Origin: Elusimicrobiota bacterium
GTDB taxonomy: Bacteria > Elusimicrobiota > Elusimicrobia > UBA1565 > UBA9628
Assembly (NCBI GenBank): GCA_023213235.1
Contig: CP096137.1
Span: forward strand, 135,587 to 199,586
Direction of reading: 5' to 3'
DNA: 64,000 nt
A program made the translations under genes and the position numbers. Shown piece after piece: positions 20,175 to 33,716 of this stretch. The first letter of the stretch is position 1. The number at the start of each line of letters is the position of its first letter. The notes under the pieces are model-generated. The model had not been told where the DNA came from. It saw only the letters and a program-made list of their open reading frames with translations, and searched no databases.

Positions 20175-21947
<1,773 letters not shown>

Positions 21948-21964
21948 GCGGCTTAGGAGACTTC

Positions 21965-23045
21965 ATGGTTTCGATGGGCGAGTTGTTCCTCTTGATGCAC
22001 GAGCGCGGGGCCTCCGACCTCCACCTGACCGTGGGCGCCCCTCCGATCCTGCGCATCGACGGCGCGCTGCTGCCGACGCCCTTCGAGAAGCTGAACTCCG
22101 AGACGGCCCAGACGCTCATCTACTCGCTGCTCAACGACCAGCAGCGCCAGCGCTATGAGGCCAGCAACGAGCTCGACGTCGCGTTCAACCTGCGCGGCAT
22201 CGGGCGCGTGCGCATGAACGTCTTCCGCCAGACGGGCTCCGTCGGCGCCGCGATCCGCGCGATCCCGAACTCCTTCAAGACATTCGAGGAGATCGGCCTG
22301 CCGCGCGCGATCCTCGACATCATGAAGCTGCCGAAGGGCCTGATCCTCGTCACGGGCCCGACGGGCTCCGGCAAGTCGACGACGCTCGCCTCGATGATCG
22401 ATTTCATCAATGAGACGCGCTCCTCGCACATCGTCACGATCGAGGACCCCATCGAGTTCGTGCACGCGCACAAGAAGTCGATCATCAACCAGCGCGAGGT
22501 CGGCCAGGACACGGTCACCTTCGGCGCCGCCCTGCGCCACATCCTGCGCCAGGACCCCAACGTCATCCTCATCGGCGAGCTGCGCGACCTCGAGACGATC
22601 CAGGCGGCGCTCAACATCGCGGAAACCGGGCACATGGTCCTGGCGACTCTGCACACTGACGGACTGCGCGCAGACGATCAACCGCATCATCGACGTCTTC
22701 CCGCAGCACCAGCTCGAGCAGGTGCGCGTGCAGCTCTCCTTCGTGCTGCAGGCCGTCCTGTGCCAGCAGCTGCTGAGCCACGCGACGGGCGCCGGGCGCG
22801 TGCTGGCCTGCGAGACGCTCATCGTCAGCTCCGCGATCCGCAACCTGATCCGCGAGGCGAAGGTCGAGCAGATCCAGGTCGCCATCCAGACCGGCGGCAA
22901 GATCGGGATGCAGACGATGAACCAGTCCCTGGCCGAGCTCTATTTCAAGCAGAAGATCACCTTTCAGGAGGCGATGTCCCACTCGCTCGACCCCGAGGAC
23001 CTTCGCCGCCTCATGCAGAGACAGATGTCGCCGGCCCAGTCTTAG
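21965..23045 (+). CDS. pilT: Pilus retraction ATPase PilT (one-base frameshift)
   Basis: About 359 residues after removal of one base. PilT depolymerises pili, giving twitching motility and DNA uptake. Residues 1-15 (MGELFLLMHERGASDLHL) are the usual N-terminus; Walker A GPTGSGKSTTLA near residue 130; Walker B NVILIGELRDLET near 205; His box TGHMVLATLHT near 225; the family motif QTINRIIDVFP follows. The frame breaks at about 22662, where GACGGACTGC should read as HTDDCAQTINR; downstream residues through SHSLDPEDLRRLM are intact in the other frame. The SD AGGAG sits before the ATG. It is 17 bases behind pilB. Confidence 0.93.
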
Positions 23046-23065
23046 GAGTAGAATAGGACCACACT

Positions 23066-24411: not shown

Positions 24412-25714
24412 CTACTCCTCGAATAGGTTCTTGTCGCGGAGCAGGCGGTGGTAGGCCACGCCGAAGCGGTGGGCCTCGTCGCGCAGCTGCTGGAGCAGGC
24501 GCAGCGCGGGGTCCTCGAAGCCGAGGACGATCGACTCGGGGCGGCCGGGGAGGAAGACCTCCTCGATGCGCTTGGCCAGCGAGGCCATCGGGACCTTGAG
24601 CAGCTTGAGGTCCTTCATCGCCTCCTGGGCGGCGCTCAGCTGGCCCTTGCCGCCGTCGATGAGGATGAGGTCGGGCAGCGCGGCCTTGTCGTCGCGCAGA
24701 CGCTTGTAGCGCCGGAACACGGTCTCGCGCATCGACTTGAAGTCGTCGATGCCGGCGACGTCACGGATCTTGAACTTCCGGTAGTGGTCGCGGTTCGGCT
24801 TGCCGCCGACGAAGCAGACCATCGAGCCGACGGTCTGGTGGCCCTGGAAGTGCGAGATGTCGAAGCACTCGACGTGGACGGGCGGCTTCGGCAGCGACAG
24901 CGCCTTCTGCAGCGCGGTCACCATCTGGGTGCGCGCGACGTGTCCGCCGACGTTCTCGGCCTCGACGGCGCGCACGCGCACGCGCTCGCCCATCTGCGAA
25001 AGGGCCCGGGCGTTGTCGCGCATGTGTCCCGCCGTCTCGTAGTCGAGGGCGGCCGAGGCCTCCTTCATCTTCGTCTCGAACTCGGCCTGCAGGTCGCGGT
25101 AGCGCCCCTCGAAGAACTTGACCGCGCGCTCGACGATCGGCGCGTAGTCCTCCTTCGTGATCCTCTGGGCGCACGGCGCCGGGCACTCCTTGGTGTGATA
25201 GTAGAGGCAGGACTGGATCTTGCGCTTGTCGAGCGGCTTGGTCTCGGAGAAGTCCCAGCGGCAGGGGCGCAGGGGAAGAGCTTCAGGCGCCACAGGTAGC
25301 GCAGCAGGCCGCGCAGGGGCTCACCTTCGGGAAAGGACCGAAGTAGGTGCCGCCGTCGCGGACCTTGCGGCGCGTCGTGAACATCCGGGGAAAGTCCTCG
25401 CCCGTCGTGATCTTCAGGTACGGGTAGCTCTTGTTGTCCTTCCACACGACGTTGAAGAAGGGTTGGTTCTCGTTGATGAGCCGGCGCTCGAGGAGCAGGG
25501 ACTCGCGCTCCGACTCGCAGAGGATGTAGTCGATCGTCCGGATGAGCGGAACCAAGGTCCGGTCCATCACGTCGGCCTTGTTCGGGTTGAAGTAATTGGA
25601 GACGCGCTTGGCCAGGTCGATCGCCTTGCCGATGTAGAGGATCTCCCCGGCGGCGTCGCGCATGACGTAGACGCCCGTCGCGTGGGGGATGTGCTTGCGA
25701 TCCAATGGCTCCAT
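24412..25714 (-). CDS. uvrC: Excinuclease ABC subunit C lacking the HhH domain (two frameshifts)
   Basis: About 434 residues after restoring two bases. UvrC makes the 3' and 5' incisions in nucleotide excision repair. Residues 1-90 are the GIY-YIG nuclease (TGVYVMRDAAGEILYIGKAIDL); CxCxxC-like cysteines follow (LRPCRWDFS...CLYYHTKECPAPC); a UVR motif near 200 (ETKMKEASAALDYETAGHMRD); and the RNase H-like nuclease (FDISHFQGHQTVGSMVCF, DLILIDGGKGQLSAA, and DEAHRFGVAYHR). It stops at RDKNLFEE, where other UvrC proteins run on about 100 residues through a double helix-hairpin-helix. Breaks are at 25272-25275 and about 25321. ATG at 25714 with TATACT six bases upstream. Confidence 0.92.
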
Positions 25715-25720
25715 TCCTTT

Positions 25721-25730
25721 AGTATACAAT
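25721..25730. promoter_or_regulatory. Overlapping divergent -10 boxes, uvrC and FecR gene
   Basis: The 22-base gap between the uvrC ATG and the FecR-gene ATG holds TATACT on the minus strand (25726 to 25721) and TACAAT on the plus strand (25725-25730). Each hexamer ends exactly six bases before its start codon. RNA polymerase cannot occupy both at once, so the genes should compete. Confidence 0.6.
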
Positions 25731-25736
25731 CAGAGG

Positions 25737-26414
25737 ATGAAATACGCCCTCCCTCTCCTCGCCGCGCTGCTCGCCGCTCCCGCTTCCGCCGCCGACCTCT
25801 CCGCGGGGGCGTCGCTGGCCGCGGTGTCGGGCGACGTGACGATCCAGTCGAAGGGCGGCGGCCGCCTCGGCAAGAAGGGCGATCTCATCCCCGCGGACGC
25901 CTCCGTCGCGACGGCCGAGGGGGCGACGGCCGTCATCGCCCTTCCCGACGGCTCGCGCCTGAAGCTGCGGGAGTCGAGCCGCGCCGGCGTCGCCCTGCCG
26001 ACGAAGGCGTCCCCGTTCACCGAAGTCCTGCTTTCGATCGGATCGGTCTTCGCGAAGGTCGCCAAGCAGGCCGAGGGGCGCGAGTTCCGCGTGCGGACCG
26101 CGAGCGCGGTCGCCGCCGTGCGCGGCACGGAGTTCTTCACGGCCTTCGGGCGCGCCCGCGGCAAGCGGCAGGACCTCTGGATCTGCGTCAACGAGGGCGC
26201 CGTCGACGTGACGACCGACAAGGCCAACAAGCCCCTGCGCGTGCCCGCGGGCAAGGGCATCCTGATCAAGTCCGGCCTGGATACGACCAAGCCGCAGGCC
26301 TATGATTGGACGAAGACGCTCAACTGGAAAATGGACGGCGAGGCGGCCGAGCTCGAGGACAAGACCGTTCTCGACGGCGCCTACTCGGACCTGCTTGACC
26401 AGGACTACCGCTAG
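25737..26414 (+). CDS. Secreted FecR-domain protein
   Basis: A 225-residue exported protein. The signal peptide is MKYALPLLAALLAAPASAA. Residues 25-165 form a FecR-type beta domain: GASLAAVSGDVTIQSKGG, then ADASVATAEGATAVIALPDGSRLKL and FRVRTASAVAAVRGTEF, the last being the hallmark of FecR proteins. Here it is periplasmic without a membrane anchor, unlike the sigma regulator FecR, so it more likely acts as a structural or ligand-binding domain. It overlaps the next gene, and TACAAT precedes the ATG by six bases with an AGAGG in between. Confidence 0.85.
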   Translation: MKYALPLLAALLAAPASAADLSAGASLAAVSGDVTIQSKGGGRLGKKGDLIPADASVATAEGATAVIALPDGSRLKLRESSRAGVALPTKASPFTEVLLSIGSVFAKVAKQAEGREFRVRTASAVAAVRGTEFFTAFGRARGKRQDLWICVNEGAVDVTTDKANKPLRVPAGKGILIKSGLDTTKPQAYDWTKTLNWKMDGEAAELEDKTVLDGAYSDLLDQDYR

Positions 26415-27156
26415 CCTCTCCGCGCTGCTGGCGTTGGCGCCGCTCGCGGCCGCGGCCGCGCCCATCCCGAGCGTCCCGCGCGGCCGCGTCGCGGAGTATG
26501 AGGCGGCCGCGCGCGTGTTCGCGCGCGCCGGACGCCTCGAGCCGCTCGTCGAGCTGCATGAGCGCTGGCAGTTCGAGGCCCTGCGGCCGTATCAGTCGAT
26601 GACGCTCGGCTCCTACGGGCGCGCGCACCGCAACCTCAAGCTCGGCGCGTTCTACCGCGTCCAGAAAGGCGCCCGCCACGACGACGACTGGACCAACGAC
26701 GCCGCCGGACGCTGGGATTGGCGCGCCACCGGCAACCGCCCCGAGAGCATGCTGATCGTCGACGCGACGCCGCGCGCCGCGCTCGGCAAATCCCTCGTCG
26801 CGGCCCTGAAGGTCCGCTACGAGCACAACTTCTTCAACGGCCAGCGCGCGGTGCGCCTGGAGCCGGAATTGGCCTGGTTCTGGCTCGACGGGCTGACGCC
26901 CCGCGCGACGGTGGCCGTGCGCCACGGCGCGTATCTGCCGCTCAATTTCGGCCAGACGTTCTACTACGAGCGCTCCTGGTATCTCGCCGGGCTCTGGCAC
27001 GCGGGCTCGAGCGTCTCCGTCGGGCCGACCGTGGCCCTGCGCGACGCGGTCTGGAGCACGTCGTCCGCCTGGCGTGCGGCGTCGGCCGGCGACTCCTACC
27101 GGACGCTGCGGCGCTCCGTCGTGTGGGGCCTCCACGCGGTGATCCGCGCCAAGTGA
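26395..27156 (+). CDS. Outer-membrane beta-barrel protein, DUF2490-like
   Basis: A 253-residue exported protein. I chose the TTG at 26395, inside the end of the FecR gene, because it yields a clear signal peptide (TRTTASLSALLALAPLAAAAA). The rest alternates hydrophobic and polar residues with many aromatics (ERWQFEALRPYQSMTLGSYG, LVAALKVRYEHNFFNGQ, SWYLAGLWHAGSSVSVGPTV), as in small outer-membrane barrels; the order matches DUF2490. It ends in a GLHAVIRAK tail. Partner of the FecR-domain protein and the polytopic protein downstream by overlap. Confidence 0.6.
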   Translation: MTRTTASLSALLALAPLAAAAAPIPSVPRGRVAEYEAAARVFARAGRLEPLVELHERWQFEALRPYQSMTLGSYGRAHRNLKLGAFYRVQKGARHDDDWTNDAAGRWDWRATGNRPESMLIVDATPRAALGKSLVAALKVRYEHNFFNGQRAVRLEPELAWFWLDGLTPRATVAVRHGAYLPLNFGQTFYYERSWYLAGLWHAGSSVSVGPTVALRDAVWSTSSAWRAASAGDSYRTLRRSVVWGLHAVIRAK

Positions 27157-28166
27157 CGGCGGCGCCCCGGGCCCTATCCCTCCCGGTATTCGACGCTCTC
27201 GCCGCGGGAGGCGCGTCCCTGGCGGCGTTCGCCGCGTTCTCCCTCGTCGGCGCGGAGGAGGCCGGGCCGCTCATGCTCACGTGGTTCGTGCCGCTGAGTC
27301 TCGCCTTGAACTGGCCGCACTTCATGGCCTCTTATCACGTGCTGTACACGACGCCGGGAGCCGTGCGCCGCTACCCGGCGGCCGCCGTCGTCGTGCCGAT
27401 CCTGCTCGCCGCCTACGCGCTCGCGGCAGCGGCTTTCGAGACGCGGTGGCCGTGGATGCTGCGCGCTTTCCACGCGGCCGCGGGCGTCTATCTCGCCTGG
27501 CACTACGCGGGGCAGACCTGGGGGACGATGGCCGCGTTCGCGCACGTCGAAGGGATCCGCGTCGAGAAGGCCGCTCGCGGCCTGATCCGCGCCAATCTCA
27601 GCGTCCTCCTCGCGTGGCACGCTCTGTGGGCCGCGCGCGCGGCGTCGCCGCTCGTCGCCGGCTTCGACGCCGCCTATCAGGCCCTCAGCGCGGCCGCCCT
27701 TCTGTCCGCCGCGCTCGGAGCCGCGGGCCTGTTCCTGCTCGCGCGGGCGGCCGGGCGTCTGCCGGCGCGCGTCGTCCTGCCCTGGCTCGCGCTGCACGTC
27801 GGCTACGCCTTCCTGTACCGGTTCCCCGGACAGGGCTATTGGATGCAGATCGTCCAGCTGTCCCACGCGCTTCAATACCTGTCCTTTCCGCTGCGCGTCC
27901 AGACCAACCGGGACGCCCAGGCGGGGCTTCGGCCGGCGCCCTGGAGGCCGGCGGCCTACTACCTGGCCCTCGCGGCGGGAGGCCTGGGGGCCTTCTACGC
28001 CCTGCCCCGGGCCGCGGACGGACTCTTCGGGACGGGGACGGGCCAGGCGGGCATGGCGGTCCTCGACGCGCTGGTCATCCACCATTATTTCGTCGACGGG
28101 GTGATCTGGCGTCTGGGGGATCCCGACGTCCGCAGGGATCTGTTCGCCCATCTGGGCCCTCATTGA
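27153..28166 (+). CDS. Polytopic membrane protein with conserved-looking histidine motifs
   Basis: A 337-residue inner-membrane protein with about eight or nine helices, family not recognised. Histidines sit near helix ends: NWPHFMASYH (residues about 50-60), AWHYAGQTWG (about 114), LALHVGYAF (about 215), QLSHALQYLSF (about 236) and IHHYFVDGVIWR (about 313). This arrangement suggests a membrane metal site, as in desaturases or hydroxylases, but their HxxxH/HxxHH boxes are absent. The GTG start overlaps the barrel-gene stop as GTGA, so the FecR, barrel and polytopic genes form one translation unit. Confidence 0.6.
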   Translation: MTAAPRALSLPVFDALAAGGASLAAFAAFSLVGAEEAGPLMLTWFVPLSLALNWPHFMASYHVLYTTPGAVRRYPAAAVVVPILLAAYALAAAAFETRWPWMLRAFHAAAGVYLAWHYAGQTWGTMAAFAHVEGIRVEKAARGLIRANLSVLLAWHALWAARAASPLVAGFDAAYQALSAAALLSAALGAAGLFLLARAAGRLPARVVLPWLALHVGYAFLYRFPGQGYWMQIVQLSHALQYLSFPLRVQTNRDAQAGLRPAPWRPAAYYLALAAGGLGAFYALPRAADGLFGTGTGQAGMAVLDALVIHHYFVDGVIWRLGDPDVRRDLFAHLGPH

Positions 28167-28188
28167 CGGCCCCGTCGTGAAAAAGCCA

Positions 28189-28194
28189 TAATCT
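28189..28194 (+). promoter_or_regulatory. -10 box TAATCT of rpsT
   Basis: TAATCT ends six bases before the rpsT ATG; the shifted reading CATAAT at 28187-28192 leaves eight bases. Either gives a leaderless or nearly leaderless rpsT mRNA. Confidence 0.45.
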
Positions 28195-28200
28195 GCCTCT

Positions 28201-28491
28201 ATGGCCAAGAAGAAGCAGATGCGTCACAAGTCGGGACTCAAGGCTCACCGCCAGTCCCTCAAGCACGCGGTTCACAACGCGTCGCTCAAGAAGTCGGTCC
28301 GCCTCGCCGTCCGCGCCGTCGTGGACGCCGCGAAGAGCAAGGACATCAAGGCTCTCGGAGATCTGACGGGCAAGGCCTCGGCCGCGCTCGACAAGGCCGC
28401 CAAGGCCGGCACGATCCACTGGAAGGCCGCGGCGCGCAAGAAGTCCCGCCTGGCCGCCCAGGTCCAGAAGCTCACCGCGACCGCGAAGTAA
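28201..28491 (+). CDS. rpsT: Ribosomal protein bS20
   Basis: A 96-residue basic, three-helix protein of the small ribosomal subunit that binds 16S rRNA. The N-terminus AKKKQMRHKSGLKAHRQSLKH resembles the MANHKSAKKRIRQ start of S20, and the C-terminal KAGTIHWKAAARKKSRLAAQ matches the family's most conserved block (GxIHxNxAxRKKSRL). Length fits (86-100). A strong terminator follows. Confidence 0.95.
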   Translation: MAKKKQMRHKSGLKAHRQSLKHAVHNASLKKSVRLAVRAVVDAAKSKDIKALGDLTGKASAALDKAAKAGTIHWKAAARKKSRLAAQVQKLTATAK

Positions 28492-28644: not shown

Positions 28645-29664
28645 TTACCGGGCGGTCGGCGTGCAGAGCTCGACGACGAGGGACGTGAGCTCGATCTTGG
28701 GGTCGAGCCAGGACTTGGACTTGAGCGAGGTCTCGACCTCGAGGAGCCGGCGCAGGTCGCGGCGCAGGCGGTCTTCGGTGACGCGGCCGGCGCGCTGGAA
28801 GAAGGTGTTGTCGTAGAAGATGCGCAGCTTCTTCTCGATGAGGAACTGCGCCTCGCCCGCTTTGAGCATGCGCTTGGCCTTCAGCTGCTTGAGGTAAGCG
28901 GCGCGCGCCTGGGCCAGGGCGCGGAAGACGACCTCCTCGGGCTTGGAGTCGGCGCGCGCCTCGTCGAGGTAGCCGAGGCAGGCCTTGAGGTCGCGCGAGG
29001 AGATCAGGCGCTCGAACGCCCACGGGTCGGTCGCCCCGCCGCGCTTGCCGGAGGAGGCGGAGACGGCCTCCAAGCCGATGGCGGCTTCCTTGCCCGCGAA
29101 CAAGATCGCCTTCTCGAGCTCGCCGGATAAAATGCCCCAGTCGGTGCCGGCCTCCTCGACGACGGCGGCGGCGGCCTCGGGGGCCATCGTCTTGCCGGCC
29201 TTCTTGGCCTCGGCGATCAGGCGCTCGACGGCCTCGTCCTCCGTGAGCGGTGAGAACACGCAGACGCCGGCGTGGGGCGAAGAGAGCGCGGCCGAGGCCA
29301 GCGCGTCCTTCTTGTCGGGCCGCCGGTCCTCGCTGAGCAGGACCAAGGTCGTCGACTTCGAGGGCTCCGACAGGTACTCGGCGAAGGCGGCGCGCGCCTC
29401 GGCGGGAATCTTGGGGTTGCGCGCGATCACGAGGCGGCGGTCGGCGAACACGGGCAAGGTCAGGGCCTCGGCGAGGACGGCCGCGTGGTCGAAGGAGGCG
29501 TCGACGCCGAAGTCGGCGAGGTTGAAGTCGTCGGGCTTGAACAGCTCCTTCAGCTTGAGGACCGCGTCGGATTTCGACGCCGACTCCTCGCCGAACAGGT
29601 AGTAGACGGGCCGGAACTTCCCGGCCTTCCACTCCGCGGCGAGATCGGCGGGCCGGAGCTCCAT
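28645..29664 (-). CDS. holA: DNA polymerase III subunit delta
   Basis: A 339-residue clamp-loader subunit. The N-terminal AAA-like domain begins with FRPVYYLFGEESASKSDAVLKL near residue 16, a family block (YLlyGeE...); PVFADRRLVIARNP near residue 75 and SSPHAGVCVFSPL near 125 follow; the C-terminal helical collar has FRALAQARAAYLKQL and VVELCTP. Divergent at sequence level like all HolA, but position just downstream of leuS and lptE confirms it. Last gene of the leuS-lptE-holA operon; it starts five bases after the lptE stop. Confidence 0.88.
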   Translation of the reverse strand: MELRPADLAAEWKAGKFRPVYYLFGEESASKSDAVLKLKELFKPDDFNLADFGVDASFDHAAVLAEALTLPVFADRRLVIARNPKIPAEARAAFAEYLSEPSKSTTLVLLSEDRRPDKKDALASAALSSPHAGVCVFSPLTEDEAVERLIAEAKKAGKTMAPEAAAAVVEEAGTDWGILSGELEKAILFAGKEAAIGLEAVSASSGKRGGATDPWAFERLISSRDLKACLGYLDEARADSKPEEVVFRALAQARAAYLKQLKAKRMLKAGEAQFLIEKKLRIFYDNTFFQRAGRVTEDRLRRDLRRLLEVETSLKSKSWLDPKIELTSLVVELCTPTAR

Positions 29665-29668
29665 CGGC

Positions 29669-30281
29669 TCAGTACGCGTTCGGGATGACGGGCTTGAGCG
29701 GTTCCTCCGGCTTGGCGACGGGGGCCGTCGAGGGGCGGAGCCCGTGATGCGGCGCTCGGACGTGCCGGTGATCGAGCCGAAGCCGTAGACGACGCGGCGC
29801 ACGATGTTGCGCGAGAGGATGTCCCAGATCTGTTCGCGCGCCTGCTCCTCGGTCAGCCCGCCGCGCAGCGTCTGAGCCGGGAACGAGAGGATGCCCTCGA
29901 GGTTCTTCTCCTCCCACAGGATCTGGTTCGAGCTCTTGTCGAGGAACTGGACGTCGACGAGGATGCGCAGCTTGAAGGCGGTGGCGGCCTGCGTCGCGTC
30001 GTACTGGACCGCGGTCAGGATGTAGCGCGAGATCGTGATCATCACCGTGCCCTGGGACTCCGCCTCGGGCACGAGCGGGTAGCGACCGTCGCGCAGGAAC
30101 TCGTCGCGCACGCGCAGCAGCAGCTTGTCCTCGAGGCCGAACTGCTGGGTCTTGTTGACGATCGTGCGCAGGGCCAGGCGCTGGACGTGCTGCGGCAGGA
30201 GCTGGGGCGTGGGCTTGTAGGCGACGTCCGTGCCGCACGCGGCGGCGAGGACGGCGAGGACGAGGGGAGAAGTTTTCTCAT
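29669..30281 (-). CDS. lptE: LPS-assembly lipoprotein LptE (two frameshifts)
   Basis: About 204 residues after restoring two bases. LptE plugs the LptD barrel and helps insert lipopolysaccharide into the outer membrane. The corrected N-terminus reads [16 protein letters not shown], a lipoprotein signal with the lipidated Cys at 16. The core has [19 protein letters not shown] and [23 protein letters not shown], typical of the LptE fold (basic helix, then strands), and a Pro-rich tail ends [10 protein letters not shown]. One base is missing in each of the runs 30264-30267 and 29741-29743. The ATG overlaps the leuS stop as ATGA. Confidence 0.85.
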
Positions 30282-32819: not shown

Positions 32820-33716
32820 ATGAAGACCCTTTCCCGGCCACAGATCCAAGTGCGGAAGGACGAGCGCGCCGTCGCCTGGGGCCCCAGCGTCCCCTTCTTC
32901 GCGCTCCACGCCGCCTGCCTGCCCGTGCTGTGGGTCGGCGCGGCGCCGGTGGAGCTCGCGGTCGCGGCCGGGGCGTACCTCGCCCGTATGTTCGCGATCA
33001 CGGGCGGCTATCACCGCTACTTCGCGCACGCCTCCTACCGCACGGGCCGCGCCTTCCAGTTCGCGCTCGCCTGGCTCGGGGCGGCCTCGGCCCAGAAGGG
33101 GCCGCTGTGGTGGGCCGGACACCACCGCAACCATCACCTCTACTCCGACACCGACAAGGACATCCATTCGCCCGTTCAAGACGGGTTCTGGTGGTCGCAC
33201 GTGGGCTGGATCCTGTCGGCGCGCTTCGACCGGGCGCCGCTCGAGTCGATCAAGGAGTTCGCGCGCTACCCGGAACTGCGCTTCCTCGACCGCTGGCATT
33301 GGCTCGCGCCGGTCTCGCTGGCCGCGGCGCTGTACGCCGCGGGCGCCGCGCTCGAACGGTGGGCGCCCGGGCTCGGCACGAGCGGTCCGCGCCTCCTGCT
33401 CTGGGGCTTCGCCGTCAGCACCGTCGTCCTCTATCACGCGACGTTCTCGATCAACTCGCTCGCGCACGTCTGGGGCTCCCGCCGCTTCAAGACCGCCGAC
33501 GACAGCCGCAACAACCTGTGGCTGGCGCTGATCACGCTCGGCGAGGGCTGGCACAACAACCACCACCGCGCCCAGTACTCCGAGCGGCAGGGCTTCTACT
33601 GGTGGGAGATCGACCTCACGCACTACGCGCTCAAGGCGCTGTCCTGGTTCGGGATCGTCTGGGACCTGCGGCGCCCCGACCGCTCGGTGTACGAAGCCGC
33701 GGCCGCCGGCGCCTAG
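32820..33716 (+). CDS. Acyl-CoA (delta-9 type) fatty acid desaturase
   Basis: A 298-residue membrane di-iron enzyme that introduces a cis double bond into acyl chains. The three histidine boxes are present in order: HRYFAH at residues 65-70, HRNHH near 101 and HNNHH near 245. About four helices ([30 protein letters not shown]) flank them, and the EGWHNNHH context is standard for SCD/DesC-type proteins. The product is unsaturated lipid, the substrate of the cyclopropane synthase encoded at 36739. Leaderless promoter TATACT; the next gene begins one base after the stop. Confidence 0.93.

Follow-up and report, generated by a model that had tools for sequence, protein, structure and literature searches.

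The Brp/Blh proteins (PF15461), beta-carotene 15,15'-dioxygenases, are to our knowledge known for one reaction. A second point of comparison is offered by the desaturases and hydroxylases of PF00487 and PF04116, membrane proteins in which several conserved histidines are thought to bind metal. According to a review, the change of His21, His78, His188 or His192 of Blh to alanine leaves less than 5% of the activity (PMC9227343). Here we describe a family of polytopic membrane proteins in which three of these four histidines lie in register, and which appears to be a remote relative of Brp/Blh.

The locus belongs to an Elusimicrobiota bacterium whose genome is a single contig of 3.8 Mb; the whole stretch analysed, 64,000 nucleotides long, is called the window. 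At 25737-28166 three same-strand ORFs each overlap the next by a few bases, as stated in the initial annotation. The first (25737..26414, +) encodes a FecR-domain protein, and this assignment was borne out by a match to PF04773 (E 7.9e-15; 55.5 bits, the cut-off being 24). The likeness to the FecR family is limited to residues 57-156, the protein having its own signal-peptide-like N terminus, and no Pfam domain other than PF04773 was found in this gene. The second ORF (26398..27156, +, TTG start) encodes an exported protein, possibly an outer-membrane barrel, with a signal-peptide-like N terminus and homologues that are 49-67% identical. Its previous description as DUF2490-like had to be abandoned, as neither the protein nor its homologues (six sequences) match DUF2490 or any other Pfam family even at E up to 10. 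A PDB profile match of the barrel was to an engineered protein. The third ORF (27153..28166, +, GTG start) encodes a polytopic membrane protein of 337 aa with ten predicted helices, for which we studied homologues, an AlphaFold model, a tree and sequence profiles. It is followed by the ORF 28201..28491 (+), which we take to be rpsT (30S ribosomal protein S20). A fatty acid desaturase gene (PF00487, E 9.7e-20) lies at 32820-33716 (+), about 4.7 kb downstream.

A scan of 84,980 species genomes yielded 55 relatives of the polytopic protein, an incomplete sample since the scan was seeded by two conserved peptides. No Pfam, NCBIfam or PHROGs match was accepted for this protein, and PDB sequence searches with the single protein and with a four-sequence profile returned nothing useful for it. 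Viral contigs contained no relatives by the single protein, the family profile or the Brp/Blh profile, plasmids and phages contained none of the polytopic protein, and our literature search found neither a description of the family nor an experiment on any member. An NCBIfam match to cydB (E 1.1e-4) in one of 45 members was taken as chance, the other members being without it, and so were the other weak NCBIfam matches, which were all poorer. Two weak matches of the phylum search (L004 and L005) were discarded because they are antisense to a ribosomal-protein gene. The family is real, unnamed and scattered over many phyla.

In the tree it falls into two branches, A and B, and the internal branch between them is long and well supported. 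Branch A, with a member in the cultured Methylophilus aquaticus, is made up of Planctomycetota, Myxococcota, Verrucomicrobiota, Pseudomonadota and others, and branch B of all other Elusimicrobiota together with Actinomycetota, Acidobacteriota, Omnitrophota and others. Branch A also includes the window protein, paired with a Myxococcales sequence (97/91) and apart from the other members of its phylum; in this tree the long-branch sequences L072 and L077 are uncertainly placed, and the letter composition of the window protein deviates. Comparison of the branch A and branch B profiles (E 6e-60; this and the other profile E-values are those of single pairwise comparisons) indicates that they form one family. 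The neighbours of branch A genes show taxon-specific synteny in Planctomycetes only and no functional theme. Directly downstream of the branch B gene, 16 loci carry a gene for a cyclophilin-type PPIase with C-terminal hydrophobic segments, and in two further loci the downstream gene matches the C-terminal part of this PPIase only. The pair spans several phyla (L052:7008-7898 and 17 other loci), and our search found no description of it. The cyclophilin is absent beside branch A genes, the window included.

The initial annotation had pointed out five His-bearing motifs in the polytopic protein and considered a new metal-dependent membrane enzyme possible. All five motifs are present, but as a metal set they are only partly conserved: H56 (in NWPHF), H117 (in WH(Y/F)), H238 (in HxLQY) and H310/H311 (in HHxFxDG) are conserved; two further histidines, H215 of the LALH motif (mostly Tyr or Phe among the members) and H62 (mostly Arg or Tyr), are not. 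In an alignment of 45 sequences, H56 is nearly invariant, and H117, H238, H310 and H311 are fully so. In a second alignment of 51 rows, H117, Q121, G124 and P82 are invariant, H238, Q241, Y242, H310, H311, F313, D315 and G316 occur in every ungapped row, and N53 is nearly always present. H56 is found in 48 of the 48 ungapped rows, its conservation and that of H310/H311 being partly a product of selection, as two signature peptides served to find the homologues; H117, Q121, G124, H238, Q241 and Y242 are unaffected by this bias. Gly217 occurs in the window protein alone, its place being occupied by Trp in 50 of the 51 rows.

AlphaFold, supplied with the 45-row alignment, predicts a ten-helix bundle (pLDDT 94.0, pTM 0.91) with long helices at residues 11-32, 34-66, 75-94, 100-132, 139-164, 171-200, 205-223, 228-256, 264-292 and 298-318. 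In this model the conserved histidines are located on helices 2, 4, 8 and 10; provided that all long helices are membrane-spanning, these four would be parallel to one another. Foldseek found no match to the model below E 0.5 (0.66 for the best PDB entry and 0.51 for the best viral models). A sequence search found no solved Brp/Blh structure, and the polytopic protein was compared with an AlphaFold model of a Brp/Blh protein (pLDDT 90). Both are polytopic all-helix bundles with the same helix order, in each the first His-bearing helix is followed by a short one, and comparison of the two AlphaFold helix lists puts the histidines on corresponding helices.

Since the order of the motifs (PH, HF, HS, H) resembles that of PF15461, the family was compared with 24 PF15461 proteins taken from other genomes. 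By hmmscan, neither the window protein nor the 45 family members match PF15461 at E up to 1. Global alignment of the whole-family profile with the PF15461 members (hhalign) gave a score of 20 over 304 columns. In a test with 500 column shuffles preserving hydrophobicity, the real score was 18.6, and the shuffles gave a mean of 2.4 (sd 2.5) and a maximum of 11.2. All four invariant histidines pair with invariant Brp/Blh histidines, and shuffles reach at most two such pairs. Polytopic controls passed through the same procedure scored 2.0 (COX15-CtaA) and 2.6 (FA_hydroxylase) against the whole family, and all remained below 6 globally. In local mode the signal is weaker, at least five of 300 shuffles exceeding the whole-family score. 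The signal in excess of the shuffles and of the unrelated polytopic controls comes from branch B, which alone reaches a score of 35.1 (pairwise E 1.4e-6, probability 81%, 301 columns; shuffles at most 18.9). The window protein's own branch, A, scores 4.2 alone and gives no alignment by itself; it reaches Brp/Blh only via branch B, so that the connection of the window protein is transitive. Taken together, the profile comparisons point, with statistical support, to a distant relationship between the polytopic family and the Brp/Blh beta-carotene 15,15'-dioxygenases.

Residue by residue, the alignment pairs H56 with H22 of the Brp/Blh protein L086, H117 with H77, H238 with H189, Y242 with H193 and H311 with H258. 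When the numbering of Blh 66A03 is mapped to L086 by motif position (H22, H77, H189, H193), three of the four histidines essential for Blh are in register (H56, H117, H238), and the fourth is replaced by the invariant Tyr242. In both families the first His helix carries PH. HF or HY follows at a distance of two long helices and H(S/A) at a further four, and the last helix again bears a His. The motifs themselves differ. N53-W-P-H56-F57 on helix 2 (codons 27309..27323, +) is aligned to the PHG motif, but Brp/Blh has PHGxxD there and the polytopic family NxPHF, lacking the aspartate. H117-Y-A-G-Q121-T-W-G124 on helix 4 (27501..27524, +) is aligned to the HF motif. H238-A-L-Q241-Y242 on helix 8 (27864..27878, +), HxLQY in the family, is aligned to HSxRH, Tyr242 standing at the second His, and H310-H311-Y-F313-V-D315-G316-V-I-W319 on helix 10 (28080..28109, +), HHxFxDGxIW in the family, is aligned to the last Brp/Blh motif, LTxPH. 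Identity over the alignment is about 9%.

These data bear on the earlier statements. The proposal of a new metal-dependent membrane enzyme agrees with the conserved histidines on different helices and with the lack of a match to a curated model. The claim that no rhodopsin-type carotenoid oxygenase is matched is partly contradicted by the profile comparison with PF15461 proteins, a distant match in which four histidines are aligned over the whole length. The exclusion of desaturases and hydroxylases agrees with our results, as the family has no Pfam match to PF00487 or PF04116 and no HxxHH or HxxxH boxes at conserved positions; the FA_hydroxylase control gave global scores of 0.9 to 2.8, PF00487 being checked by Pfam match only.

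If the fold and the three essential histidines were inherited, a metal-dependent in-membrane oxygenase is the most likely activity. We find it reasonably probable that the window carries an acquired gene for a sister of Brp/Blh which acts as a metal oxygenase within the bilayer on a substrate that is probably not beta-carotene. The product would be a ten-helix inner-membrane protein in which a catalytic metal (by analogy it would be Fe(II)) may be bound inside the bilayer via His56, His117, His238 and His310/His311, with Gln121, Gln241, Tyr242 and Asp315 assisting the metal site; a hydrophobic substrate, probably other than beta-carotene, would be oxidised. We infer the metal, the oxygenase chemistry and the substrate class, and a non-carotenoid lipid is the most likely substrate, given the carrier genomes without any squalene/phytoene synthase gene (eight of 18). 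The haem-copper oxidase gene COX1 occurs in 16 of the 18 carrier genomes (none was found in G301 and G308), which is compatible with O2-using chemistry.

Could the conserved histidines serve something other than oxygenation? A metal- or haem-binding membrane protein acting as a transporter, a metallochaperone or an assembly factor would agree with the cyclophilin partner of branch B, which would fit a role in folding or assembly, with the invariant Gln and Asp beside the histidines, which can also serve transport, and with the neighbourhoods of branch A, where no substrate pathway gene recurs. We nevertheless consider this unlikely, since the profile link leads to an enzyme family and aligns the very histidines that are required for Blh activity, and since Foldseek revealed no likeness to a known transporter fold among PDB entries and viral models.

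Returning to the oxygenase, one may suppose that it is a true carotenoid-cleaving enzyme, forming retinal or another apocarotenoid in place of a missing Brp/Blh. Apart from the remote homology to PF15461, this would be in line with the lack of PF15461 in four of the five rhodopsin-bearing carrier genomes (G301, G305, G306 and G307, carrying L027, L036, L038 and L042). However, three of these four also lack genes of the squalene/phytoene synthase family (SQS_PSY). Unlike what a Brp/Blh function would lead one to expect, carriers are often without SQS_PSY and rhodopsin: the former is absent from eight of 18 genomes and the latter from 13, the window genome included, although such absences are soft because several carrier genomes are incomplete. 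Carotenoids are therefore an unlikely substrate in general, and no carotenoid or rhodopsin families are present among the tallied neighbours. The window genome has two SQS_PSY genes in tandem, a pair which, we presume, resembles HpnC/HpnD of hopanoid squalene synthesis. Altogether, we regard carotenoid cleavage as highly improbable.

The origin of the gene is best seen from related genomes. In five other genomes (L018-L022) fecR adjoins the barrel gene. In three same-genus genomes among these (L018, L019, L020), fecR and the barrel gene are followed directly by rpsT, which is separated from the barrel stop by about 50 bases, and the polytopic gene is absent. The synteny of these empty sites is backed by holA and leuS on their flanks, with uvrC, pilC and pilB as additional support in two genomes; the rpsT copies are 84-91% identical to that of the window. 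Among 13 same-genus genomes listed by the phylum search, only that of the window has the polytopic gene. The inserted gene shares its first four bases with the end of the barrel gene. At its other end, a scan revealed a promoter-like site that precedes rpsT (TTGACG-18-CATAAT, 28163..28192, +), and the TTGACG hexamer of this site overlaps the stop codon of the polytopic gene. The same site is present in the three empty-site genomes and marks the downstream edge of the insertion. The polytopic gene is thus a lineage-specific insertion behind an older and otherwise ordinary fecR-barrel pair. Neither fecR nor the barrel gene recurs beside its relatives elsewhere. This removes the basis for the earlier view of the three genes as one unit spanning the outer and inner membranes for ligand uptake. 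An envelope-spanning uptake or enzyme module made up of the FecR protein, the barrel and the polytopic protein is scarcely credible: their genes overlap on the same strand in the window genome, where co-transcription is probable, but the pair exists elsewhere without the polytopic gene, and the relatives of the latter have other neighbours.

Horizontal acquisition of the polytopic gene is supported by the empty same-genus sites together with its place in the tree apart from other Elusimicrobiota. We infer the direction of transfer: the gene would have been acquired from outside and inserted between the conserved fecR-barrel pair and rpsT. Its GC content is close to that of the neighbours, so that the acquisition, if recent, was from a GC-rich donor, or the gene has since been ameliorated.

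Several other genes of this genome are interrupted in ways that may originate from the assembly. The uvrC gene (24412-25729, -) lies in two frames in the window; in L019 and L020 its two parts share a single frame (with starts 450 bases apart). This suggests a frameshift or base error in the single-contig assembly. A PilT-like gene (about 22119-23045, +) changes frame in its second half, passing from ORF 21602-23056 to 22410-23045, possibly by another assembly indel. The COX1 gene of the window genome (G000:C1:1720416-1721833) is read as two overlapping pieces, which is compatible with indel errors in the assembly. Finally, in the ORF 28645-30111 (-) an LptE-like N-terminal part is joined to a HolA-like part; the two occupy separate frames in L019, and the fusion may be a frameshift.

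A wider proposal, which we put forward tentatively as possible rather than probable, is that the polytopic proteins are an undescribed family of non-haem membrane metal-oxygenases, a sister to Brp/Blh acting on a non-carotenoid lipid. Transfer would have carried the family into Planctomycetota, Myxococcota, Elusimicrobiota, Verrucomicrobiota, Pseudomonadota and other phyla, and in branch B a dedicated cyclophilin anchored in the membrane would act as partner. If this is true, proteins now without annotation would obtain a named target, and the conserved cyclophilin partner would give a further testable handle on branch B. The existence of a much more divergent and widely distributed branch with the same His layout would then suggest that proteins of the Brp/Blh fold form a superfamily of oxygenases acting on different substrates.
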